From Algisphaera agarilytica (GTDB taxonomy: Bacteria; Planctomycetota; Phycisphaerae; Phycisphaerales; Phycisphaeraceae), in assembly GCF_014207595.1 (NCBI RefSeq), contig NZ_JACHGY010000001.1, positions 1,798,001-1,862,000 of the forward strand: a stretch of 64,000 bases of DNA, in the 5' to 3' direction. Of this stretch, positions 34,137-46,218 are shown piece after piece. Every line of letters starts with the position of its first letter. Position 1 is the stretch's first letter. The notes below the pieces were generated by a model. That model saw only the letters and a list, made by a program, of their open reading frames with translations. It had not been told where the DNA came from and did no database searches. A program made the translations under genes and the position numbers.

Positions 34137-34154
34137 GCCGCTTGCGGCTTAGCG
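34137..34154. repeat. GCCGCTTGCGGCTTAGCG repeat unit
   Basis: A short palindromic unit in the gap between the HAD and GlmM-like genes, identical to the copy in moeA. Confidence 0.7.
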
Positions 34155-34180
34155 TTTCTGGATTCGTTGGAGGACTGAAG

Positions 34181-35560
34181 ATGGCAGATTCAAACGCCCC
34201 CCTCATGCTCAGCATCAGCGGCATGCGCGGCCTGGTCGGCAAGTCGATCACGCCCGATGTCGTCGCCCGCTACACCGCGGCGTTCGGCAGCTGGCTCAAG
34301 ACCGCCCGCAACACCGCCAACCCCACCGTCGTGCTCGGCCGAGACTCGCGCCCGTCCGGCGAGATGTTCGAAAACGCCGCTGCCGCCGGTCTCGCCAGCA
34401 TCGGTGCCAAGGTCATCCGCGTCGGCATCCTCTCGACGCCCGGCGTCGCCATCATGGGCCAGCACCTTGGGGCTGACGGCGGCATCGTCATCACCGCCAG
34501 CCACAACCCCACGCCCTGGAACGGCGTCAAGCCGCTGCGCCACGACGGCGTCGCCCCGCCGCCCGATGCGTTCGAGCAGTTCATCGCGATGTTCAAATCC
34601 GACGAGGCCGACCACGTCGAGGTCGATGCGCTCAAGCCCATCACGAGCAACACCACCGGCGTCGAGGTCCATCGCGATCTGGCCGCCGACCTGGTGGACG
34701 TTGAGCTGATCCGAAACGCCAAGCTCAAAGCCGTCGTCGATTCGGTCCACGGCGCGGGCGGCGACGAAGCCGCGGCGCTGCTTGACCTCCTCGGCGTCGA
34801 AACCGTTCAGCTCTACAAAGAACCCACCGGCCAATTCCCTCACGTCCCCGAGCCGACCAAAGAAAACCTCACCGAGCTCTGCGAAGTCGTTGCCCGTGAA
34901 GGGGCCCACGTCGGCTTCGCGCAGGACCCCGACGCCGACCGCTTGGCGATCGTGGATGAGCAAGGCCAATACATCGGGGAGGAATACACGCTCGCCCTCT
35001 GCGCCATGCACAAGCTCGGTAAGGGCGACGTCGCCGTGGCAAATCTCTCGACCAGCCGGATGATCGACGACATCGCCGAGGCCGCGGGGGCAACCGTCGT
35101 GCGGACCCCGGTCGGTGAAGCGAATGTCGCCGCGGGCATGCGTGCGAACAACGCCAACCTCGGCGGCGAAGGCAACGGCGGCATCATCTGGCGGCCCATC
35201 AGCCAGGTCCGCGACAGCCTCGTCGGCATGGCCCTGGTCCTCGAGATGCTCGCCCAGCGCAAGATCAGTCTGTCGTCCATCGTCGCCGCCACCCCGAGCT
35301 ACGCGATCGTGAAAGACAAGCTCGAACTGCCTACGCGTGAACAAGCCGACCCGACATTGGTCTGGACCGCCCAGCACTACGCCGACCAAAAGGTCGACAC
35401 CCAAGACGGCGTCCGCGTCGACTGGGAAGACCGCTGGGTCCACGTGCGACCGAGCAACACCGAGCCGATCCTGCGCATCATCGCCGAAGCCGCGACACAG
35501 GAAGCCGCTCAGGCTTTGGTGGATGAAGTCCGCGCCGGCATCGCGTCGATCGAGTCTTGA
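34181..35560 (+). CDS. glmM: Phosphoglucosamine/phosphomannomutase-type enzyme
   Basis: About 459 aa alpha-D-phosphohexomutase. The phosphoserine loop is VITASHNPTPWNG, the metal site is DPDADRLAIVD, the sugar-binding loop is GGEGNGGII, and the phosphate-binding C-terminus is RPSNTEPILRII. These features fit GlmM, which makes glucosamine-1-phosphate for peptidoglycan, but phosphomannomutase activity cannot be excluded. A strong GGAGG lies at 34169-34173. A palindromic repeat follows the stop codon within four bases. Confidence 0.85.
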   Translation: MADSNAPLMLSISGMRGLVGKSITPDVVARYTAAFGSWLKTARNTANPTVVLGRDSRPSGEMFENAAAAGLASIGAKVIRVGILSTPGVAIMGQHLGADGGIVITASHNPTPWNGVKPLRHDGVAPPPDAFEQFIAMFKSDEADHVEVDALKPITSNTTGVEVHRDLAADLVDVELIRNAKLKAVVDSVHGAGGDEAAALLDLLGVETVQLYKEPTGQFPHVPEPTKENLTELCEVVAREGAHVGFAQDPDADRLAIVDEQGQYIGEEYTLALCAMHKLGKGDVAVANLSTSRMIDDIAEAAGATVVRTPVGEANVAAGMRANNANLGGEGNGGIIWRPISQVRDSLVGMALVLEMLAQRKISLSSIVAATPSYAIVKDKLELPTREQADPTLVWTAQHYADQKVDTQDGVRVDWEDRWVHVRPSNTEPILRIIAEAATQEAAQALVDEVRAGIASIES

Positions 35561-35602: not shown

Positions 35603-36133
35603 CTACCAATTGATCCGCACAGGCTGCTCATCGATCAGTCGGGCCTCGTCGCCGACTTGGAAGGTGACGCGGAGCAACACCTCCCGCCGCGTGATGGCCG
35701 AGGAGTCCAGCCGCAGCCGCAGCAGGTAAGCCCGCGTGATCGGGTCGTAATACCGCTTCTGTTCGTCGAGGGTCAACAGATCGATGTCCCAGCTGTAGAG
35801 CAGCCGACCCACATCGATCCCCGGCGCATGCCCTGCCGCGAACAACTCGAACCGCAGCTGCCCCGACGCTTTGATCGAGTCGCCCATCTGGTCGAACATC
35901 TCGATCCGAGCTTCGAGGATCGGCGTGTCCTGCTCACGCACAAACCGCGTGGAGGGATAGATGCGAAGCGCCACCGCCTTCGGCTGCCAACCAGCTTCGT
36001 CCGTGGCCTCGCGATCACTGGTTCTCGGCGTAGCGGGCCCTTTGGGCTGACAACCGCTCAGCGCAACCCCGCACACAGCCAGGGCCATCACAAGGATCGC
36101 GGAGCGGTGAGCGGAGGGGAAGCGCATGATCAT
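35603..36133 (-). CDS. Hypothetical lipoprotein
   Basis: About 176 aa with a signal and lipobox (GVALSGC). The mature domain is probably a beta-sandwich: VALRIYPSTRF, PILEARIEMFDQMGDSIKASGQLRFELF and REVLLRVTFQV. I do not recognise the family, though similar small lipoproteins are common in planctomycetes. An alternative start two codons later (ATG 36127) is equally possible. Convergent with the GlmM-like gene. Confidence 0.72.
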   Translation of the reverse strand: MIMRFPSAHRSAILVMALAVCGVALSGCQPKGPATPRTSDREATDEAGWQPKAVALRIYPSTRFVREQDTPILEARIEMFDQMGDSIKASGQLRFELFAAGHAPGIDVGRLLYSWDIDLLTLDEQKRYYDPITRAYLLRLRLDSSAITRREVLLRVTFQVGDEARLIDEQPVRINW

Positions 36134-36197
36134 CGGTTATGAGAATAGACCGCGCTACCCACCGCATCAACACGACCCGTCGTCCCAGCCCCTCACC

Positions 36198-36905
36198 TCA
36201 AGCCGCCTTCGGCAACCGCTTCACTTCTTGGGTGCCCTCCGCCTCCACCACGCGCACCACCCGCTCCCCATTATTCGCCGAATCTCCCCCCGACACGCCG
36301 CCTTCCAGCAACCTTCCCACGGCATACCTTCCGCGTCCCTTGCTCTCGATCATCCGCCCCAGCTCGCTCCCCGGGGCCGTGTGTTCCTGCCAGCGGTCCC
36401 GTAGCTCCCTCGCATACGCCACCAGTTCCGGGTCGTTCTTCCGCTGAACCGCCCGCAGGGCCTGCTTCGCCGCCGCCTTCTCCGCCTCCAGCCGCGCCAG
36501 CTCCGCCTCGTCCGGCCCCATCACCGCCTTGTCCTCCGCCACCTCTTTCGCCGGCTCACCAAACCCGCTCCCCGCCCCAAACCCACCGACCGCCACCGCC
36601 CTCGCCCCCGGAAGTAAACCCGCCCCCGGAAGCCCCGACAAGCCCGCCCCGGGCCCTTGACCCTCCTCGGCGCGGCTCTTGCCCTTCCCCTTCTTCTTCG
36701 CCTCCCGCTCCCGCTTCTCCACGTTGCTCAGCTGGTCCTCCAGCAACCGCGTCTCCGCCGCCCGTCGCTCCGCCCCGGGCAACACCACCGGCGTCGCTTC
36801 GTGCCACTGCACCTCCGGGGGTAAAGGCAGCACCACCCGCCCCTCCATCATCGCCCCGCCTTGCGTCTCAAACGGATACCACCATGACGTCATCTCATCA
36901 CCCAC
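36198..36905 (-). CDS. Hypothetical protein with Lys/Glu-rich and Gly-rich segments
   Basis: About 235 aa, unrecognised. The N-terminus (TSWWYPFETQGGAMMEGR) looks folded. The centre has a basic helix (VEKREREAKKKGKGKSR) and a low-complexity Gly/Ala/Pro stretch. The C-terminal third is again charged and helical. It begins 12 bp after the GNAT gene, so the two are likely co-transcribed. Start could also be the ATG at residue 5. Confidence 0.6.
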   Translation of the reverse strand: MGDEMTSWWYPFETQGGAMMEGRVVLPLPPEVQWHEATPVVLPGAERRAAETRLLEDQLSNVEKREREAKKKGKGKSRAEEGQGPGAGLSGLPGAGLLPGARAVAVGGFGAGSGFGEPAKEVAEDKAVMGPDEAELARLEAEKAAAKQALRAVQRKNDPELVAYARELRDRWQEHTAPGSELGRMIESKGRGRYAVGRLLEGGVSGGDSANNGERVVRVVEAEGTQEVKRLPKAA

Positions 36906-36917
36906 CCGAACCCGCTT

Positions 36918-37553
36918 CTACCAAAAAACATGCACGCCCCCGGCCGTGTTCCCGTGCTTCTTCTTGAGCTTCTCCAACGTCGACCGCCCCGCCGCCCGGA
37001 ACGCCAACGGCACAAACCCCATCGCCTCCCAAAACCGATTCGCCTCCAGCGACTGCTTGCACCAGCAGCAATACAGCTTCGTCCCGTACGCACTCTGATC
37101 AAACTGCGCCTGCAGCAACGCCGCCGCCACCAGCGACCGCCGGTACGCCGGCGCCACACACATCTGATAGATGATCCCCACGTGGTCCTGCTTCATATAC
37201 CGATCCACGCCCAGGCAGTAGCCGACGGGGTTCCCGTCGGAGTGATCAGTGAACAGTGACGAGTGAACAGTCGAGTCCTCGTTGCCCGTGCCTTCCCCCT
37301 TGTTCACTGAGGACTGTGAACTGTTCACTGTGCTCGTCGCCACCGCGACGAGCACGTTGCCTTGCTCGATCCGCTTCCGGATGGCCTGTTCGTACTGAAA
37401 CCCGACCTTGTCCGAGTCGGCTTTCTGCAGCGCATCGATAAACGCGAAGTCGTCCTGCACCGCCCGCCGAATGCGGATGTCCAGCCGCGGCTCAACCGCC
37501 CGCAAACCACCGCCCAAGCCCGACGCCTGCTCGATCCGAATCACTTCCGACAT
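36918..37553 (-). CDS. GNAT-family acetyltransferase with an in-frame repeat insert
   Basis: About 211 aa. The GNAT fold is visible in IRIRRAVQDDFAFIDALQ, GYCLGVDRYM, the acetyl-CoA segment IIYQMCVAPAYRRSLVAAAL and the C-terminal NRFWEAMGFVPLAF. About residues 75-105 are not family sequence. They are encoded by a palindromic repeat (core 37247-37330) of the same family as the intergenic element at 61888-61987. The insert lies between two expected strands and keeps the frame. A GGGAGG ribosome site precedes ATG 37553. Acetyl acceptor unknown. Confidence 0.8.
   Translation of the reverse strand: MSEVIRIEQASGLGGGLRAVEPRLDIRIRRAVQDDFAFIDALQKADSDKVGFQYEQAIRKRIEQGNVLVAVATSTVNSSQSSVNKGEGTGNEDSTVHSSLFTDHSDGNPVGYCLGVDRYMKQDHVGIIYQMCVAPAYRRSLVAAALLQAQFDQSAYGTKLYCCWCKQSLEANRFWEAMGFVPLAFRAAGRSTLEKLKKKHGNTAGGVHVFW
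37247..37330. repeat. CAGTGAACAGT inverted repeat inside the GNAT gene
   Basis: CAGTGAACAGT (37247-37257) and its inverse ACTGTTCACTG (37320-37330) flank about 60 bp with further partial pairing. It shares the AGTGAACAGTGA core with the element at 61888-61987. Confidence 0.8.
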
Positions 37554-37809
37554 GATTGCCTCCCGGAAATAGGGGTTCGTTGTATCCACGCCAAGACGCT
37601 ACGGCGTCAAGGCACCAAGAAAACCAAAACGCGGTTGAGCCGCCGATTCCACAGATGAAGACCGGATTCAAGGCCATCCAACCCATCGGCGAAATCTGCG
37701 AAACCTGCGGCCAAACCCGACTCACCAAAGGCCCCTCGCCGATTTCTCGGCGGAGGACCAGGAGACGAAGACACCCCGCCACAGAGCGTGACGGGGCATC
37801 TGGGGGGTT

Positions 37810-38499
37810 TTACGCTGCTTCGGTCAGGCCCTGGAACCCGATGCGGGTCTGCACCGGGGCACAAGCCGGCCCCGGCTGTTCCGTGGGGTTCACCCACAAC
37901 GCCGTCACCCACACCTTCGTGCCCGGCTGGACCTCTGGCTCAATCACAATCTGCGGATTGTGCTTCGTCGATCCACCGCGGTACTGCCAGGCCGTGAGTT
38001 GGGCCGGCGGATCGTCACCGATGTGGGTGTACAGGTTCACCGACCGCACGCCAGCCGGTTTACGCTTCGTCTCGCCGTCTTCCCGGCGGACCTCCAGGTC
38101 CAACACCGAGCCGTTCACCGCAGCGACGCGCAACACCGGCATCTCCACCGGCGGGCCGATCGGCGTCGGCTGACTATCGCGTACCGGGATGCGCAATTCG
38201 TCACGCTTCGCGTCGGTCATATATGGCCAGCCTTGCAACACGCTGACCAACAGCCGGGCCTGACGCACCATCTCCGCCTTCTTGGCATTCTTGTCCGCCA
38301 CCGCTGGCTTGGTCTTGGTCGACGGGTTGCTGGTCACGGCGTAAGCCGCCGCAAATGCGCTGTACGTGCTGCCAAAAGGTACCAGTTGATCGGCGGTCAC
38401 CCCGAACGCTTCGGGTGTCGCTTCCAGCCGATCATTCAGGTTCTGCGCCCAGCCTAGAAGCTCGGCTTCACGACTCGGGATATACGATTCTTGCACCAT
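37810..38499 (-). CDS. Hypothetical protein of a planctomycete-type family
   Basis: About 229 aa. The N-terminal half is a helical bundle (LLGWAQNLNDRLEATPEAFGV, AAAYAVTSNPSTKTKPAVA, KAEMVRQARLLVSVLQG). The C-terminal half is a beta-sandwich-like module (PVLRVAAVNGSVLDLEVR, VRSVNLYTHIG, TKVWVTALWVNP). I have seen proteins of this two-part layout in planctomycetes, function unknown. No signal peptide. It is separated from the GNAT gene by about 255 bp of non-coding sequence with repeat fragments. Confidence 0.7.
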   Translation of the reverse strand: MVQESYIPSREAELLGWAQNLNDRLEATPEAFGVTADQLVPFGSTYSAFAAAYAVTSNPSTKTKPAVADKNAKKAEMVRQARLLVSVLQGWPYMTDAKRDELRIPVRDSQPTPIGPPVEMPVLRVAAVNGSVLDLEVRREDGETKRKPAGVRSVNLYTHIGDDPPAQLTAWQYRGGSTKHNPQIVIEPEVQPGTKVWVTALWVNPTEQPGPACAPVQTRIGFQGLTEAA

Positions 38500-39308
38500 G
38501 ATCCAACTCCTGCGGCCACGCCGCGTGTGATCGCCCCGCGGAAATGCACATGTTGTGCCCCGGAACGCTAAGAAATTTACTCAAGCCCCAGAAGCCAAAA
38601 ACGTTTGTGCCCCGGAAAAGAACGCTTGAGTTGTGAACACTGCTGACTTCGACCACCCCGCCGCCCCAGCTTCACTCCACGGATCGTGTTTTGCCCAAAA
38701 GTCACCCTCGCCGATAAACCCCGGCATCCCACCGCGCCCGCTCCCGTCTGCTCGACCTATCGCCGTCGGATCGGACCTCTCCGTTTCCGATAAGCCCGCC
38801 CGAATCCCTGAAAACGATCTATTTACACGTAAAAACGAATCATTCACGCGCGTGAATAAAGCGAAAACAATCGATAACAAGTTGCGCACGGTCGTGAACA
38901 ATTCAGATACGCGCGTGAACGCCCCACCTCATACGCGAGTACATCTTGGAATCGCGTACAAACAAAACGCTCAACAGTAGAACTAAACCGAAACCGATCG
39001 TGTTTGAACCATTTAAGGTTAAAAGCCCTTTGCGCACGACTCGAAATGATCGGCGTCTTGCGAAAAACTATAGCATTCACGAGTCGTTTCAGTTTAGAAA
39101 TTCTATTGGAGCGGCTCTCCCCTCCTTAGCCCCGGAACGAACCGGAGTCGATGTGTTCAAGAACATCCGTATCGAAAGGCTACACTGCTCGCGGCCACCC
39201 ATCGTGTACATGGATTAATGTACCCCTCCCCTTTTCCGCCCCCGATAGTGCTACTGACAATTATTACCGAGGCATGTTATCCCAGCCACCCGCCGAGAAT
39301 AGTGTAGA
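38500..39308. other. AT-richer 0.8-kb non-coding region at the island edge
   Basis: No convincing gene on either strand. It holds repeated short motifs: TGTGCCCCGGAA twice (about 38550-38625), and ACGCGCGTGAA at 38846-38856 and 38909-38919 with a related CGTGAAC between. Composition shifts gradually from the GC-rich left flank to the AT-richer helicase gene, as expected for the edge of a transferred segment. Confidence 0.45.
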
Positions 39309-42041
39309 TCACTTTTGGGAAGCGGAAGAAGCAACAAAGGTTGGATTACCAGGTAATCGGTCGAGTTCGGTTACCCCAGGCTCAGCCAACCAATCAATAA
39401 AGCTCGGCGCATCAAGGCGTCCTGTAAGCACACGAACCAACCCTTCCATAAATACCTCATGCCTAACCAGCGTGATATCCGTGGCAGCAGCAGCTTTCTT
39501 TTTTGACGTTTCATCGAAGTCTGGTTTTCCTAGCGTTACCCGATGCATCGACTTGTCAAAATCTGCAGATTTCTGGACTACTTCCCATGCCGCGCGCTTG
39601 TCAATCAGAGGCGGCTTCTTCGTAACGGTTTTGCATTCGATGATCAGAGACTTTTCATTCAATGCTAGGCTGAAGTCTGGCACATTCTGACGGTCGCCAT
39701 CATCAATCACATCAACTACAAGTTGCAATTCCTGCCGAAGCAGCTCGACAATCGCATCTTCATAGTCGGTACCAATAGCTTGATTGCAAGCCTCGACTTG
39801 TTCTGCTAGCCCAACTTCACCGGCAGCCTGAACATGTGCAGCGGCGTAAGGTACCGCAGCATCGTTAAGATTTTGACCAAGTGCATCAATGAGGCTCTCT
39901 GCTCGCTCTTTTCCGTGAATCAATTTCGCCAACTTATCGAGTGGCGTTTTCAGGATGTCCATGATTGTTCCGACGCCATTGGCAGTCAGCGCCATCAATC
40001 GCTGACGCCCAAAACCGGGAACCCGTGATCTTGTCGCAATTTTAAGGACATCGAGGCCATCGACTGGCACACCCCACCGGATTCTGCGAGCTAGCATGCG
40101 AAGGTGATTCGTTGTTGATTGTGGGATGGCAAGTTCCTTTGCCCCTGAAATGCAGCTCAAACCATCTAAAATCCAAGCAAAATCAGATGCCAGCCGGTGG
40201 ATGTATCCTGAAGAAATTCTCGACACAAACTGTATCTTTCGCTCGCCTTCTCCAGCCATAAACAAGCCGAGAGCATGTACTGATGCGATAACTTTTGAGT
40301 CGTTTGGATCAAGCGGCGTTAAGAGATTGTTTTGTTGAATGAATAGCTTTGATTCAGCTTTTACTTCCCCCGCAGGATAAGGAAGAAAACGCGTCGGAGT
40401 ATCACTTGAGAATTCAGGGCACGAGGCAATCCAGTGGATGATGCCGATCTGATGATCATCAAACGCATCGTTGATTTGCGAGCCCTTGTTTCCAAGCAAG
40501 TCAACAAACTGTCCAGCTGTTTCCGGTAGCAAGCCTGATTGAGCAGTAGCTCTTCCTAAAGAAGTGATTTGGATCGCGCCATCTTCTTGCGCAAGATAGT
40601 GCCTATCGATAAGCCAAGTGGCGGCATCCTTGGCTTTCTTGATTATCGCCTCCAGTAACTTGGGATTGTGTTCTTGCGTTTGATGCCAATAGAAGCTGTT
40701 TTTGAAGAACGTCTCGACTTCCTTCCGAGTCGAAACAGTTCCGGCTGCAACAAGACCTAAGATTGTTCGTCGCATACTGAGGGAAACCAGTTGTGATATG
40801 ATTTTCTCATTCGCCGGGGCGACGAGCTTGTTTGCGTGGGCTAGTTCAGCATTGTTTTTAGGCAAAAGATAAGCGTTGCCATCGGGGTGTAAACCAAGGC
40901 GACCCGCGCGGCCTGACATGTTGCGGTAATCACCCAATGACATTTTGTGATCGTCTCGATAGGTGAAAAAAAGCTTCGAGAAGACAACCGTGCGGAACGG
41001 GAAGTTGACGCCAGCTGAAAGTGTTGACGTGGCAAAGCAAACATCGAAATCAGATTTATCGAAGCCTTGCTCAATGACATTGCGTTCGTCGGGGGTCAGG
41101 TCGGCGGAGTGAAATGCGACACGTCTTTCCGCATTACTCTTAAGCGATTGTGATGACTCGGTCGGCTCCGAAAATAGCTCCAACTGATTCGAAATCGCGA
41201 TGCCTTTTTGATCGCGGTTGCATTGCTTGCTGTATTCGTCTGCATATCTTCGAGCTTCGTTTCTTGTCTCTGTAAAGACTAAAACTGGTCCTTGCCCTCT
41301 GGAAATGAGACTTCGAACAAACGAATGTAGATTAGACGAAGGGGTGGGGTCGACTGTCGTGGAGCCCTCATCTTGACCGAATTCAACTGTATATCTTTGC
41401 CCTGCGTAGCAAATATGTTGCTGTAGCACAACATCGCGTTTTGCGCAATGCACGACCTCGCATCCCATCCAATCTGCTACTTCGTCGGGATTTTCCGCTG
41501 TAGCTGTGAGTCCGACGAACTGTTTGGGTTTGCGCTGTCTCAGAAGCGTGCATAACGTCTCAACGGAGGCTCCACGATACTTGTCTCCAAGTAACTGTAA
41601 TTCGTCGGCAATGATCACCGTTTGAGACACGCGAAGGCGACCCGAGAGTAAAAGCCCAAGTGCTTTCTCGTATGTTGAGATCAGCAGGCGTGAGCGAATG
41701 TCCCCGTCTTCGCGGTCACCTGTGCTGATGGCCACAGAAATATGAGAGCCAAATTGATCAGAGGTAAATCGTCGTGAAAAGTCTGCGTATTTCTGCTCAG
41801 CCAACGCCTTGTGTGATACAAGATATAGAGCGTCGGCATCACCTTTAAGTGCAGACGCCAAAGCCAGCTCACCGACAAGCGTTTTGCCGGAGGATGTCGG
41901 AGCACACACTATCGCGCTTGTACCATTATGTACTCCGTGGTTGACGGCGAGCTGCTGTACGTCAGTAAACTCCTTGATGTTCCAGCATTTCAGCCAAGAC
42001 GCCAGTTCTGGGCCGACAATGGACTCATCGATTGTGAACAT
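39309..42041 (-). CDS. Ski2-like SF2 helicase fused to a C-terminal PD-(D/E)xK nuclease
   Basis: A 910-aa protein. Helicase motifs: Walker A APTSSGKT (47-54), motif II DELQ (146-149), motif III VGLTATAEN (176-184), motif V FATSTLSAGVNFP (336-348) and motif VI RNMSGRAGRLG (373-383). Helical domains follow, then a helix-hairpin-helix segment (VPGFGRQRLMALTANGV), as in Hel308-like repair helicases. The last 154 residues form a restriction-endonuclease-like domain: Glu761 in GTDYEDAIVELL, Asp789 in VPDF, and Glu802-x-Lys804 in LIIECKT. A strong GGAGAGGA site precedes ATG 42041. Composition is markedly AT-richer than the neighbours, indicating transfer. A defence or genome-surveillance role is inferred. 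Confidence 0.85.
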   Translation of the reverse strand: MFTIDESIVGPELASWLKCWNIKEFTDVQQLAVNHGVHNGTSAIVCAPTSSGKTLVGELALASALKGDADALYLVSHKALAEQKYADFSRRFTSDQFGSHISVAISTGDREDGDIRSRLLISTYEKALGLLLSGRLRVSQTVIIADELQLLGDKYRGASVETLCTLLRQRKPKQFVGLTATAENPDEVADWMGCEVVHCAKRDVVLQQHICYAGQRYTVEFGQDEGSTTVDPTPSSNLHSFVRSLISRGQGPVLVFTETRNEARRYADEYSKQCNRDQKGIAISNQLELFSEPTESSQSLKSNAERRVAFHSADLTPDERNVIEQGFDKSDFDVCFATSTLSAGVNFPFRTVVFSKLFFTYRDDHKMSLGDYRNMSGRAGRLGLHPDGNAYLLPKNNAELAHANKLVAPANEKIISQLVSLSMRRTILGLVAAGTVSTRKEVETFFKNSFYWHQTQEHNPKLLEAIIKKAKDAATWLIDRHYLAQEDGAIQITSLGRATAQSGLLPETAGQFVDLLGNKGSQINDAFDDHQIGIIHWIASCPEFSSDTPTRFLPYPAGEVKAESKLFIQQNNLLTPLDPNDSKVIASVHALGLFMAGEGERKIQFVSRISSGYIHRLASDFAWILDGLSCISGAKELAIPQSTTNHLRMLARRIRWGVPVDGLDVLKIATRSRVPGFGRQRLMALTANGVGTIMDILKTPLDKLAKLIHGKERAESLIDALGQNLNDAAVPYAAAHVQAAGEVGLAEQVEACNQAIGTDYEDAIVELLRQELQLVVDVIDDGDRQNVPDFSLALNEKSLIIECKTVTKKPPLIDKRAAWEVVQKSADFDKSMHRVTLGKPDFDETSKKKAAAATDITLVRHEVFMEGLVRVLTGRLDAPSFIDWLAEPGVTELDRLPGNPTFVASSASQK

Positions 42042-42170
42042 GTTATTCCTCTCCGGAAGCTGGTTTATATGAAGCTACCTCAATCAACGGTATTTCATGA
42101 GTGCTGTGGTTGATAGTTCCGGCCTCTCAAGCTCCCGCAGCGACTGCCCCGCGATTCCATGCAGGTCGCC

Positions 42171-42422
42171 TTACATCCTGACGCTGGTCTGCATGACGTT
42201 GGCGAGCTGATCTGCGCGGTCGTGGAGCGCTGGCTGGCGCTTGGCGTAGCCGGCGGATTGCTCGGCGAGCTTGGTCTCGTACTCCTGCTTGGTGGCGGTG
42301 ATGAGCGGGGCCGCGAGGGACTCGTTGAGCTTGATCTCGGTACCGCAGTTCTGGTCGGCGGGCATCGCGCCTCGGCCGGGGGGCCGCCTCACCATCACAC
42401 CACTCACCCGAAAACCGTCCAT
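42171..42422 (-). pseudogene. Truncated 5' remnant of a DUF2130-family gene
   Basis: About 83 codons. The stretch NCGTEIKLNESLAAPLITAT, followed by KQEYETKLAEQSAGYAKRQ, is the N-terminal zinc-knuckle-like and coiled-coil start seen in DUF2130 proteins, which are normally several hundred residues long. Reading stops soon after at 42171. The proposed ATG (42422) lies inside an 88-bp repeat shared with the region upstream of the astacin gene. Deletion of the rest during arrival of the neighbouring island is a plausible history. Confidence 0.6.
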
Positions 42423-42493
42423 CGATTCACAACTCCGGAAATCAATCATCAAAGGGCCCAGGAATTCCGCCGCGGCTCCAGTGTACGCCCCCG
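42406..42493. repeat. 88-bp direct repeat, copy A (downstream of astacin)
   Basis: 78 of 88 positions match copy B at 44234-44321, in the same orientation. Both contain a minus-strand GGGGGC(G/T)TACACTGGA promoter-like element and a CCGGAG ribosome site before ATG-GAC-GGT. Copy A begins four bases from the astacin stop codon. Confidence 0.9.
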
Positions 42494-42496
42494 CCC

Positions 42497-44011
42497 TCAT
42501 TCGAAGCCTCCTGCACGGTAGAGTTTTTCGTTTTCGATGATGTACACATGGTTGCCAAGGGTTGCGGCCCGGATCGGGGCTTCGGTCCAGATGCGGTCGC
42601 CGATGGTTTCGTGGCGGCCGGTCGAGACATCCAGTGCGTGCAGGTAGCCGTTCTCCAGAACAACCACTTCCCGGTTGGTCGAGGCGAGGCTTGGTGTGTC
42701 GGGGGTGACCAGCCAATCGGATTGTCCGACGACTTCGTAGGTGCCGGTGCCTGGATTCACTTTACGGAGCTTGTCGTTTTCGTAGACGTAGAGGCTGCCC
42801 CCGAAGTACGTCATCGAGGTGACGCCCTCCCAATTGGCGGTGCCGACCTGGCGGTAGTTGTTTTGGCTGAGCGAGACGGCGTAGAGCTTTCGGTTTTCCA
42901 CGATGAACACTTCGCCGTTGCCGTAGGCCATTGAGAGGGGGCCGATTTTCCAGGCGTTGGTTGGGCCGACGATCTTGACTTGCAAGGGGTTGGCGGCGGG
43001 GTCGATGCTGTGGAGGTTGCCGTTTTCGACGATGTAGAGGTGGGTGTCGGAGGAGGCGAGGGCGACCTGGCCGACGTTGAATTTGGTGCCCAGGGGCAGG
43101 ACGCGCTCCTTGCCGTTTGCGGGGTTGACCTCGTAGACGTCGCCGTTTTCGATGATGTACAGCTTGCCCCGGCAGCCGGTGATGTCGTGGAACTGGTTGT
43201 CCCATGCGGCGTCGCCGAGCCGGTGGTGTTTCTTAGGGTAGACCCGGCCCGCAAAGCGTTTGTCCTCAGCGGATAGTTTGTTGTTGAAGGGGATTTGGTA
43301 GTCCCCGATCGTAAAGCGGTTCGGGATCGGATAAGCCATGATCGATTGTGGATCGAACCGGCCGGCGTTGACGTGGCTGTGGTCGTAGGCGTCGAGCACG
43401 TTGCTGCGTATCTTGGCCTCGCTCCAGGGCGGTGTCAGGCTTTTGTAGTAGTTGAAGACGGCGGGTTCGTTCCACTGGAAAGGGATGTCGGTTCGGAGGT
43501 GTTCGTGGATCATCCCGATGGCATGACCGAACTCGTGCAAGATGACGCGTTCATCCAGCCAGCCAAAGTTCATCGTGGGCTGATCTTGACTGCGGTCCAA
43601 AGCAAACTTGCCCAGAGCGGACCACGACCCCGTGTCTCCGCCCCATTTGAACCCCACACGGATTTCGGCGTCGCCGTCATCGACGAACTCGAACTGGAGG
43701 GCGCAGTGGTCAGACCACTGGGGGGCAACATCCCGCACTTGTTGATGCTGGGCGGGGGTCCCATTGAGGAAGCGAACGCGGAGTGTCGACCGATCTCGCC
43801 AGGCGGTGTTCATGTCGGCCGCAAGTGACGGGGTGCCGCCATCGTTTAGGACAGCGTTCTGCGGCGGGGTGGCTCGTATGCCTTCTGGGTAGGCGGTGGT
43901 GCATATGTGCGCTTCTTCAGCCGTAGCGCAGACGGTTGATGCCATGAGCAAGCCCTTTCCGGCGATGAGTATGGCCGATACAAGCTGAGCTGAGAGTGAG
44001 GTGAGTTTCAT
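42497..44011 (-). CDS. Secreted astacin-like metalloprotease with C-terminal beta-propeller
   Basis: About 504 aa. The N-terminus has a hydrophobic signal (residues 8-30). The catalytic domain has the extended zinc motif HEFGHAIGMIHEHLR (159-173) and the Met-turn SIMAYP (223-228), both diagnostic for astacin/M12A metzincins. From about 282 onward there are five or six repeats of a LYIIENGxLYxVxP type strand pattern with a VGxxxW spacing, as in a small beta-propeller, probably a substrate-binding module. The gene is enclosed by 88-bp direct repeats and lies next to the helicase island, so it may be a mobile cassette. Confidence 0.88.
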   Translation of the reverse strand: MKLTSLSAQLVSAILIAGKGLLMASTVCATAEEAHICTTAYPEGIRATPPQNAVLNDGGTPSLAADMNTAWRDRSTLRVRFLNGTPAQHQQVRDVAPQWSDHCALQFEFVDDGDAEIRVGFKWGGDTGSWSALGKFALDRSQDQPTMNFGWLDERVILHEFGHAIGMIHEHLRTDIPFQWNEPAVFNYYKSLTPPWSEAKIRSNVLDAYDHSHVNAGRFDPQSIMAYPIPNRFTIGDYQIPFNNKLSAEDKRFAGRVYPKKHHRLGDAAWDNQFHDITGCRGKLYIIENGDVYEVNPANGKERVLPLGTKFNVGQVALASSDTHLYIVENGNLHSIDPAANPLQVKIVGPTNAWKIGPLSMAYGNGEVFIVENRKLYAVSLSQNNYRQVGTANWEGVTSMTYFGGSLYVYENDKLRKVNPGTGTYEVVGQSDWLVTPDTPSLASTNREVVVLENGYLHALDVSTGRHETIGDRIWTEAPIRAATLGNHVYIIENEKLYRAGGFE

Positions 44012-44233
44012 TGATCTGGTTTCGTTGTATGGCAGAGGTGCCAAGGGTTCAGAGATCGAGAGTGTTGGGTCAAGTTTTGCTGGTGAAGTGCTGTGCCCAT
44101 CTGCGCCCCGAATATGGGCGGTTATGGCATGTAGCGTCCCTCGCGGCGAACGACTGAGGAATCAAGCATTTGCCGCGCACGGCTGGCCTTGCGCAAAATC
44201 CCGCAAGTCCGTAAGGCCGTCCCCACCACGCCA

Positions 44234-44321
44234 ACCCGAAAACCGTCCATCGATTCACAGCTCCGGAAAACAAACATCAAAGGGCCCGGGAAATCTGCTG
44301 CGAGTCCAGTGTAAGCCCCCG
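44234..44321. repeat. 88-bp direct repeat, copy B (upstream of astacin)
   Basis: Matches copy A at 78 of 88 positions. It contains a minus-strand TACACT element (44308-44313) that could serve as the astacin promoter, although the start codon is about 295 bp away. Confidence 0.9.
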
Positions 44322-44578
44322 TTCCGGACGACACTACCTTTATTTTCCCTACTCGAAGCCCCAATGATCTGCAGGTTATCCACAGGCTGGGCGGCCGGGT
44401 GAATCCTATTCACGGCCGATGTGCTGCCATCTATATAAGCAGCCAGTAACGCCCCAGGGCCCCGAATCGGCCTCCCAAACGCGCATATACCCCCTCTGGG
44501 GCCCTTTTAAGCCAGAAAAATGGGTTGGTGAAAATTGTTCACCGCCCGGTCAGGAATGTGAAACTCCATGCAAAGCGC

Positions 44579-44607
44579 TTGCCAACACCCTGTTTTGATG
44601 ATTTAAT
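44579..44607 (+). promoter_or_regulatory. Promoter of the sigma-54 activator gene
   Basis: TTGCCA (44579-44584), a 17-bp spacer and TTTAAT (44602-44607) form a good sigma-70 promoter. The ATG follows after nine bases, so the transcript is essentially leaderless. Confidence 0.7.
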
Positions 44608-44616
44608 TGGCGTTCT

Positions 44617-46218
44617 ATGGATCGTGCTGAGCAAGAATTAGACATTCTCGAACAAATCAGCCAAATTCTTGGCGATGGCCTCGAGCTGAGCCAAGTGTTT
44701 CAGCGGGCGATGAGCCTGCTCAGCAGCCGGCTGAACGTGCAGCGGGCGGCGCTGGTTTTGTTCGATCAGGCGGCGGATCAGCTCCGGACGGTGGCCTCGG
44801 TGGGGCTGACCTCGGCCGAGCAGGAGCGGGGGCGGTACGCCCTGGGCGAGGGTGTGACCGGCCGGGTGATGGAGACCGGCATCCCCGCGGTGATCCCCGA
44901 TGTGGCCAACCACCCCGAATTCCTGAACCGGACCAAGAGCCGGGAGCTGGCCGAGGAGGCGGAGGGGCCCCTGAGCTTTATCTGTGTGGCGGTGAGAGAC
45001 GGCGACAGATTTGTCGGCACGGTCAGCATCGATAAGCCGTTCGTGGATGACGCGACGCTCGCGGCGGAGGCCCGGCTGCTCAAGATCTTTGCGGGGCTCA
45101 TCGCTCAGACGATCCGCATCCACAATGTCGTGCGGCTGGAGAAGGACGAGTGGCTCGCCGAGCGGGAGCAGCTCACCGACAACCTCCGTGGCAAGTACCG
45201 CTTCGACAACATCATCGGCTCCAGCCCGGTCATGCTCGACGTGCTCAGCACCATCGGGCAGGTTGCCAGCTCTCGCGCCACGGTTCTGCTGCTCGGCGAG
45301 ACCGGCTGCGGCAAGGAACTCATCGCCAAAGCGATCCACTACAACAGCCCCCGCCGCGACAAGCCGCTCATCCGCGTGAACTGCGGCGCGCTGTCGCCCC
45401 AGCTGCTCGAATCGGAATTGTTCGGCCACATGAAAGGCGCGTTTACCGGTGCGGTCAAAGACAAGATCGGCCGATTCGAGGCGGCCAGCGGGGGCACCAT
45501 CTTCCTCGACGAGGTCGGCACTCTGGACCCGCAGCTTCAGGTCAAGCTGCTGCGTGTGCTTCAGGAACGCGAGTTCGAACGCGTGGGTGACCACCTGACC
45601 ATCAAGACCGATGTCCGGGTTATCGCTGCGACCAACCTCGAACTCGAAGAAGAAGTCCGCAAAGGCAACTTCCGAGAGGACCTTTACTACCGGCTGAACG
45701 TGGTGACGATCCACCTGCCGCCGCTGCGGTCTCGTCGGGAAGATATCCCGCGATTGATTGACCACTTCCTGGACCGGTACAACCGCGAGAACCAGCGGGA
45801 CCTCAAGAAGATTAGCCGAGATGTGTTGAACACGCTGCTGCGGTACCCCTGGCCGGGCAACGTCCGAGAGCTGGAAAACGCGATCGAGCGTGCCGTGGTG
45901 CTGTCCTCGACCGAAGAGTTTTCTGAAGAACTGCTCCCCCTGCAGATCCGGCTGTTCGCCCAGCAGATCCGGGGTGACACAACCGACGAGTCAATCGAAG
46001 CGATCGCCACCAAGCTGGCCGAGCACGCCATCAAGCAGTTCCAGATGTACGACGGCGAGGTCTACGACATGGTCATCGGCGAGGTCGAGCGTCGGCTGAT
46101 CCGCGAGGCGTTGGACTACAACGGCGGGGTGAAGATCCGAACCGCCGACTTCCTGGGCATCAACCGGAACACGCTCAATAAGAAGGTCAAGGACCTCAAT
46201 ATCGAAGCCAAGGATTGA
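44617..46218 (+). CDS. Sigma-54-dependent activator with GAF sensor
   Basis: About 533 aa. A GAF domain (about 10-170) is followed by the AAA+ domain. Walker A is GETGCGKE (usually GESGTGKE), the sigma-54 contact loop [11 protein letters not shown] is intact, Walker B is [12 protein letters not shown], and the arginine-finger region is [12 protein letters not shown]. The C-terminus is a Fis-type HTH ([18 protein letters not shown]). It remodels RpoN polymerase at distant enhancers; the GAF ligand is unknown, as in NifA/FhlA-like proteins. No receiver domain, so it is not controlled by phosphorylation. Target genes are not evident here. Confidence 0.94.

Follow-up and report, generated by a model that had tools for sequence, protein, structure and literature searches.

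Hna of S. meliloti (SMa2245, 845 aa) is a single-gene helicase-nuclease acting by abortive infection. According to PMC13381803, its motor is similar to that of DinG/XPD, the Arch domain being reduced, and the enzyme is a 3'-5' single-strand exonuclease that is restrained by ATP and released by the single-stranded DNA-binding protein (SSB) of a phage; exchange of K729 for alanine abolishes the nuclease activity. Here we describe a gene of Algisphaera agarilytica, located on the minus strand at 39309-42041 of a 64,000-bp stretch of contig NZ_JACHGY010000001.1 (the whole stretch is called the window, and coordinates refer to it), whose 910-aa product joins a Hel308-type motor to a predicted nuclease of the Hna type. 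Hna is the nearest known analogue of this protein, and was not named in an earlier reading of the same DNA (the original prediction), which had looked to the Hachiman system. We favor, with moderate confidence, the view that the gene encodes a single-chain sensor-effector defense protein that works like Hna with a Hel308-type motor.

Other described systems also combine a superfamily 2 (SF2) motor with a nuclease. Hachiman (HamAB) links a Ski2-like DNA helicase with a D-E(x)K nuclease, and a model of genome-integrity sensing is given for it in PMC12278908. The same paper states that Hel308 is absent from bacteria, and ascribes to Hel308 a preference for 3'-5' unwinding and a wide substrate scope. 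YprA-family helicase-nucleases (ARMADA, Druantia) and BREX-related Swi2/Snf2 helicase-nucleases likewise carry an SF2 motor with a fused C-terminal nuclease (PMC12458937, PMC12839542); they are set apart here as other SF2 families only by the descriptions in these papers.

The motor is related to Hel308

The gene is an uninterrupted frame with an ATG start, and helicase motifs and nuclease residues lie in one 910-aa chain, as the original prediction had it. The features of the gene and its helicase part are as follows.

39309..42041, minus strand: helicase-nuclease gene, 910 aa (open reading frame [ORF], ribosome-binding site, full-length relatives at 58-59% identity)
42047..42054, minus strand: ribosome-binding site GGAGAGGA, upstream of the ATG, graded strong (from the sequence)
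39858..42041, minus strand: Hel308-type helicase, aa 1-728, with RecA1, RecA2, winged helix, domain-4-like region and helix-hairpin-helix (NCBIfam PRK02362, VIA-align, HTH_61)
41880..41903, minus strand: Walker A, APTSSGKT, aa 47-54 (sequence)
41595..41606, minus strand: Walker B, DELQ, aa 146-149 (sequence and alignment)
41097..41114, minus strand: motif IVa, FHSADL, aa 310-315; F/YHHAGL in Hel308 (sequence; motif name from PMC10484726)
40899..40922, minus strand: motif VI, NMSGRAGR, aa 374-381 (sequence)
39879..40025, minus strand: helix-hairpin-helix, aa 673-721 (Pfam HHH_5, E = 0.0022, below cut-off)

The helicase motifs announced in the original prediction were thus located (Walker A, DELQ, motif IVa and motif VI), and its Ski2-like helicase proved to be nearest to Hel308/Hjm by profile, by PDB sequence and by fold. 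The best NCBIfam profile was the Hel308-type PRK02362 (E = 7e-86, aa 11-728). In Pfam, DEAD, Helicase_C and HTH_61 scored above cut-off and HHH_5 below. The helix-hairpin-helix segment is this sub-threshold HHH_5 match, which sits where domain 5 of Hel308 is expected. A sequence search of the PDB returned Hjm/Hel308 first (E = 3.2e-57, aa 4-729) and HamB last of the 54 entries listed (E = 6e-8). An AlphaFold model of the full-length protein, made with nine helicase relatives, reached a mean predicted local distance difference test score (pLDDT) of 68.6, with 539 of 910 residues at pLDDT of at least 70, mostly inside aa 1-725. Compared with solved folds in VIA-align, the model matched Hel308/Hjm 2zj8 best (Z = 37.8, root mean square deviation 5.1, 671 residues, aa 2-722), in a tie with Hel308 2p6r (Z = 37.0), followed by Pol theta and Brr2. 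By Pfam, NCBIfam and fold match, the window motor thus has the domains and the fold of Hel308.

With Hel308/Hjm/HELQ the protein shares the winged helix, the domain-4-like region and the helix-hairpin-helix. It differs from them in its extra nuclease, in having FHSADL for F/YHHAGL, and in its scores. Since these were below the curated NCBIfam cut-offs for Hel308 (289 versus 887, 233 versus 1216 and 221 versus 1200 bits), the motor is a Hel308-like relative rather than a Hel308 in the strict sense. Among the best-ranked titles and abstracts of a literature search, in which coverage of subscription papers is thin, none described a bacterial Hel308-type helicase with a fused nuclease or caspase; the pairing of a Hel308-type motor with an Hna-type nuclease may be previously unreported.

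The C-terminal domain is a predicted nuclease homologous to that of Hna

39312..39839, minus strand: predicted PD-(D/E)xK nuclease domain, aa 735-910, with aa 744-831 as the core that aligns to the Hna nuclease (hhalign, sliding windows)
39759..39761, minus strand: E761, equivalent to Hna E687 (alignments)
39675..39677, minus strand: D789, equivalent to Hna D713 (alignments)
39636..39638, minus strand: E802, equivalent to Hna E727 (alignments)
39630..39632, minus strand: K804, equivalent to Hna K729 (alignments)

Hna was located on pSymA from published facts (P712/D713/E727/K729; PMC12445080 and PMC13381803), and its family profile was built from Hna and five plasmid homologues (239 plasmid records match Hna, 30 of which were listed). 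When the tails of the window family were compared with the Hna-family tails (n = 6) in hhalign, the single comparison gave E = 9.5e-6, a probability of 82.7% and a score of 40.5. Column-shuffled controls had a mean score of 12.4 (standard deviation 2.2, maximum 19.8), with 0 of 200 reaching 40.5, and the reversed tail scored 20.0. The signal was confined to the nuclease core: among nine slices of the full family alignment run against the Hna tails, the two containing the core scored 35.2 and 40.6, the other seven 10.0 to 12.7. In the profile alignment the catalytic E/D/E/K residues of Hna were in register with E761/D789/E802/K804.

These are exactly the residues that the original prediction had named as a nuclease core (Glu761, Asp789 and Glu802-x-Lys804), and all four are invariant across the four aligned intact members, the window's included. 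The tail alignment (window, G057, G054 and Cereibacter) conserves, among others, G757, E761, A763, D780-D781-G782, P788-D789, E802 and K804. The residues exceed chance expectation: an E-(20-32)-PD-(8-18)-E-x-K pattern arose in 2.2% and 0.9% of 5,000 shuffles for two of the tails, and the relatives retain it; within the last 260 residues, PD..ExK occurred in the four intact members and in none of 29 other helicases. Together with the homology to the Hna nuclease, this led us to assign aa 735-910 as a predicted PD-(D/E)xK nuclease domain.

Profile searches of the PDB with the tail gave chance-like matches only, the best being the Vivid PAS protein (E = 0.17). Searches of Pfam, PHROGs and PADLOC with the tails gave only sub-threshold matches: Hjc (Pfam) for three of four members (best E = 0.0031), Mrr_cat for one of four (0.077) and CARF_PDDEXK for one of four (0.0082). 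Unrelated names appeared at similar E values (a PADLOC cyclase at 0.0094; phrog_2165, "DNA helicase," for two of four at 0.022), and the sub-threshold Pfam, PHROGs and PADLOC matches were given no weight, since unrelated names score alike.

Like Hna, the window protein is one polypeptide with an SF2 motor first and a PD-(D/E)xK nuclease, predicted in the window protein, last (910 versus 845 aa), and both occur in families found on plasmids. The motors differ, that of Hna being DinG/XPD-like. The profile of the window-family motor aligned over 132 columns with Hna (RecA1 only), over 366 with HamB and over 530 with the sister Hel308-like helicases described below, and with the hidden Markov model (HMM) of the full family Hna had the lowest score among 34 proteins, at 7.4 bits. 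Membership in the Hna family was accordingly rejected on the motor, and the relationship kept for the nuclease. The window protein therefore does not count as Hna, even if it may act in a similar way.

Motor phylogeny and sister groups

A maximum-likelihood tree was calculated from 32 motors (33 were gathered; one HamB fragment was excluded for its short length). The four intact nuclease members, including the Cereibacter protein at 27% identity, were monophyletic by motor alone (support 100/99), although the Cereibacter branch is long (1.89) and its placement less sure than the rest of the tree despite this support. Because the nuclease clade is monophyletic by motor, PD..ExK is kept in it, and none of the 29 other helicases has the pattern, nuclease and motor have stayed together.

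The sister group of the nuclease clade (99/95) comprises two kinds of Hel308-like helicase. In the first (L029-L034, L037 and L039), a C-terminal tail of ∼170 aa belongs to no family that we recognized; these helicases also occur on contigs filed as viral. The tails of L029 and L030 look winged-helix-like, but gave nothing in Pfam at E ≤ 0.5. In the second kind the effector is an N-terminal caspase, and PD..ExK is absent from the tail. Peptidase_C14 scored above the Pfam cut-off in all eight of the sister helicases scanned for it; in a ninth, L036, this part was masked and outside the scan. The caspase-fused proteins (L025:4023-7163, L048:4996-8280 and L076-L081) include representatives on Bradyrhizobium, Agrobacterium and Hymenobacter plasmids; seven are on plasmids and that of L048 is on a contig filed as viral. 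Some adjoin restriction, Piwi, TIR or caspase genes. Since the sister motors carry other effectors, we infer that sensing lies with the motor and the effector function with the attached domain.

Separately, a genome of the same phylum encodes a plain 760-aa Hel308-like protein (L035:7815-10097) with strong archaeal domain-4 and helix-hairpin-helix matches, in contrast to the absence of Hel308 from bacteria stated in PMC12278908.

Distribution and genomic context

The searches took in samples of the window's phylum and one other phylum, together with viral contigs, plasmids and phages; chromosomes of further phyla were hardly represented. Within the order, 4 of 400 genomes matched at E ≤ 1e-40, in three families and including the window's own genome. 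The copies in G057 and G054 are full length (59% and 58% identity); that in G045 is in pieces with parts missing. In the phylum sample, 11 of 392 genomes matched at E ≤ 1e-35, three with the nuclease (G000, G054 and G045) and eight with the helicase part only; repeated with the alignment, the search found 10 of 392 at E ≤ 1e-60. Of 66 plasmid records with matches, none had 80% of the query covered at a single site, and two Cereibacter plasmids carry a colinear 962-aa member. The tail alone matched no plasmid, and the Cereibacter tail found only the two Cereibacter records. No phage record covered 80% of the query in one place, and viral contigs gave no match for the full protein or the tail. 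Searched with the alignment, they yielded 12 loci matching the helicase part (the ORF was read out in 9 of them). Genome contigs searched with the single protein gave one weak helicase. The other phylum gave 0 of 288 at E ≤ 1e-60, which is uninformative since the search had no positive control.

In the window, the gene lies on an insertion that varies within the genus.

36134..44616, no strand: genus-variable insertion with the helicase-nuclease gene; 8,483 bp here versus ∼165 and ∼198 bp between the flanking-gene matches in G001 and G002

G001 and G002 are both of the other same-genus genomes compared. Genes for a phosphohexomutase-like protein (34142-35560), a lipoprotein-like protein (35603-36133; both named by eye) and a sigma-54 activator (44617-46218) flank the insertion here and adjoin each other there; the empty site itself was found in both, although the assemblies are 78 and 91% complete. 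The helicase-nuclease was not found in G001 or G002, where the best matches, at 28 and 30% identity, belong to another helicase, which is also encoded in the window's own genome. The gene has a GC content of 0.491 and a GC content at third codon positions (GC3) of 0.475, against GC3 values of 0.76 to 0.84 in eight neighboring genes, so that the original prediction was right in calling it AT-richer than its surroundings. The GC dip recurs at the copies in G054 and G045. Low GC3 and the absence of the insertion from both same-genus genomes also bear out its description of a foreign-looking island. Since other genes of the insertion (GNAT, a 229-aa ORF and a metalloprotease) have host-like GC3, the composition suggests that the helicase gene was a separate, younger arrival within it.

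The borders proposed for the gene were upheld in part. Non-coding flanks are plausible, as 38500-39308 and 42042-42496 hold short ORFs only (on the left, 115 and 90 aa). A broken DUF2130 gene alongside found no support: Pfam gave no DUF2130 match for 42174-42362 (E ≤ 0.5) or for ORF 42171-42716 (E ≤ 1), fragment 42174-42362 matched only itself across the three genomes of the genus (E ≤ 0.001), and the remnant was discarded. Promoter-like and terminator-like sites were no more frequent than in shuffled sequence.

Elsewhere on the insertion, 42497-44044 (minus strand) encodes an astacin/matrixin-like metalloprotease with internal repeats in its C-terminal half (a beta-propeller by eye). An 88-bp direct repeat (42406-42493 and 44234-44321, 89% identical) flanks this gene; no further copies were found in the genome and none in either congener, and the repeat may be the trace of a separate insertion. 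Strongly negative GC skew (-0.357), the largest of the window's 1-kb steps, is seen at 36001-37000, where the insertion that carries the helicase-nuclease has its left end.

The genes next to the window copy have no match around the copies in G057, G054 and G045. Homologues always sitting in core repair operons, which would have spoken for a repair role, were not what we found; the flanks differ among window, G057, G054 and G045. In G057, an integrase, a BsuBI/PstI-type endonuclease and two methylases accompany the helicase-nuclease. FRG-domain genes lie directly downstream in two genomes.

L026:10765-11676 and L028:1582-2547: FRG-domain genes directly downstream of the helicase-nuclease

In G057 the FRG gene begins 58 bp downstream and matches the PADLOC candidate PDC-S15 (E = 3e-29); in G045 the same gene follows after 3 bp, with a serine recombinase nearby. 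Near the other loci, no FRG match was obtained at E ≤ 1 in 19 loci. On the conjugative Cereibacter plasmid, the helicase-nuclease is accompanied by an IS256 element and a UvrD-like gene, and downstream by DarT and ADP-ribosylglycohydrolase genes, the DarT gene 3.4 kb on. Neighboring genes were scanned with profiles around G045 only in part, and G054 was outside the scan. Presence in 4 of 400 genomes, differing flanks, the empty site in congeners, low GC3 and conjugative plasmids together give the family a sporadic, mobile-looking distribution.

Proposed function and alternatives

Combining the behavior of Hel308 with that of Hna, the protein may act as follows. The motor would load onto single-stranded or branched DNA, such as damaged forks or phage replication intermediates, and move along it 3'-5' in the manner of Hel308. 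As long as ATP is normal and the motor is cycling on ordinary host DNA, the nuclease would stay restrained. The balance could tip to the nuclease when single-stranded DNA persists, or when a phage protein such as SSB is bound to it; once freed, the nuclease would degrade 3' single-stranded DNA. Phage replication would then stop, and the cell would probably die or be arrested. Each of these steps beyond domain identity is drawn by analogy. Of the anti-phage or DNA-damage surveillance role in the original prediction, defense or surveillance remains probable from genomic context, and the relation to Hachiman was lost.

Several observations weigh against a defense protein of this kind. Against Hna as a single sequence, the tail gave no significant match (E = 0.12 by hhalign and by HMM); significance came only with the Hna family profile, the hhalign comparison at E = 0.12 already aligning the catalytic residues in register. 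Modeled alone, the tail reached a pLDDT of 41.5, with the order helix, two strands, helix, strand, strand; Foldseek with this model gave no match at E ≤ 0.001. In the full-length model the tail was all-helical, mostly at pLDDT < 50, in conflict with the alpha/beta single-domain model. Because fold prediction failed, the nuclease assignment rests on Hna homology and the kept residues. The survey of homologues for defense islands found recognized defense neighbors only in G057 and on the Cereibacter plasmids, and no PADLOC family in the four neighboring ORFs of the window that were scanned, which are part of the ORFs of the insertion; nor was there an FRG match in the window or the G054 stretch. 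Helicase and FRG genes of G057 and G045 are 84-85% identical over the longer aligned pieces and share only this unit of ∼4 kb; since they are so similar, they moved as one unit and count as one event, not two. The proposed regulation, with ATP restraint and an SSB trigger, is taken over from Hna, whose motor is of another kind, and protection from phage is predicted from context for a family with no known phage or damage phenotype.

That the protein is a fused Hachiman, with HamB joined to HamA or having its partner elsewhere, is most improbable. HamB profiles are indeed its best PADLOC matches (E = 6e-31), and HamB appears in the PDB search (E = 6e-8). The best HamB profile covers the motor alone, however (aa 30-400 against profile positions 146-525). 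In HamB profiles whose best stretch starts from RecA1 (among 25 of 46 matching profiles), positions 133-265 aligned with aa 21-46, so that the window motor begins ∼90 to 245 residues nearer the N terminus; it starts at aa 16, compared with aa 168-169 in two full HamB proteins. Judged by PMC12278908, what is absent would be the HamA-binding domain. In the tree, the three HamB proteins from DUF1837 loci fell outside all other motors, hence outside the clade of the window protein. HamA/DUF1837 had no profile similarity to window-family or Hna tails (hhalign probability 0.2-0.3%, with 0.3% for the tail against DUF1837), and was not found in the genome: PF08878 gave no match in G000, G045, G054 or G057, the same search being positive in 2 of 61 genomes and in 0 of 14 control genomes. 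Hachiman thus differs in its two genes, the branch of its motor, the extension before the HamB motor and a nuclease unrelated by profile, and the link to it made in the original prediction was abandoned. A Hachiman locus was seen at L075:8056-10647, where an interruption makes HamB read as two ORFs.

The protein might instead be a repair helicase of the Hel308-like kind that was imported and that, like archaeal Hef, carries a structure-selective nuclease; it would process stalled forks or junctions for the host with no role in defense. The nearness of the motor to Hel308, a fork-repair helicase, would fit such a genome-maintenance enzyme, as would the weak matches of three of four tails to Hjc, a Holliday-junction nuclease (best E under the cut-off). 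We nevertheless think it unlikely, given a gene of foreign composition and differing flanks that no more than 4 of the 400 genomes from the order possess, once in pieces, and a tail that was compared by profile with two nuclease families and matches that of anti-phage Hna. Somewhat less likely again is service to a mobile element, either in inter-element exclusion, by destroying competing plasmids or phages, or in element replication. The conjugative Cereibacter plasmids, the serine recombinase near the G045 copy, the integrase-bearing island of G057 and the insertion in the window all agree with it. Yet no transfer or replication gene was found among the window neighbors scanned in Pfam, and the unit that is shared comprises a single gene, or two where FRG is included. 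That the gene is a nonfunctional passenger in decay, for which the broken G045 copy could be cited, is very improbable: the copies in the window, G054, G057 and Cereibacter are intact, and at 27-59% identity they retain every catalytic residue.

Implications for helicase-based immunity

Beyond the single-chain defense protein favored here, we tentatively propose, at slightly less than even confidence, that the family belongs to a group of unrecognized bacterial Hel308-type immune sensors, built on one helicase chassis that is joined interchangeably to an Hna-type nuclease, an N-terminal caspase or the ∼170-aa C-terminal tail. The window gene would be the nuclease version, and Hna the same nuclease joined to another motor. 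If this is true, there would be another route, beside Hachiman and Hna, by which SF2 motors police bacterial DNA, and Hel308, an archaeal and animal repair helicase described as absent from bacteria, would become the center of a modular immune family. Whether the motor sets what is sensed and the attached domain sets the response would become testable: nuclease and caspase versions with sister motors form a natural swap series, and Hna, with a related nuclease on another motor, is its converse.

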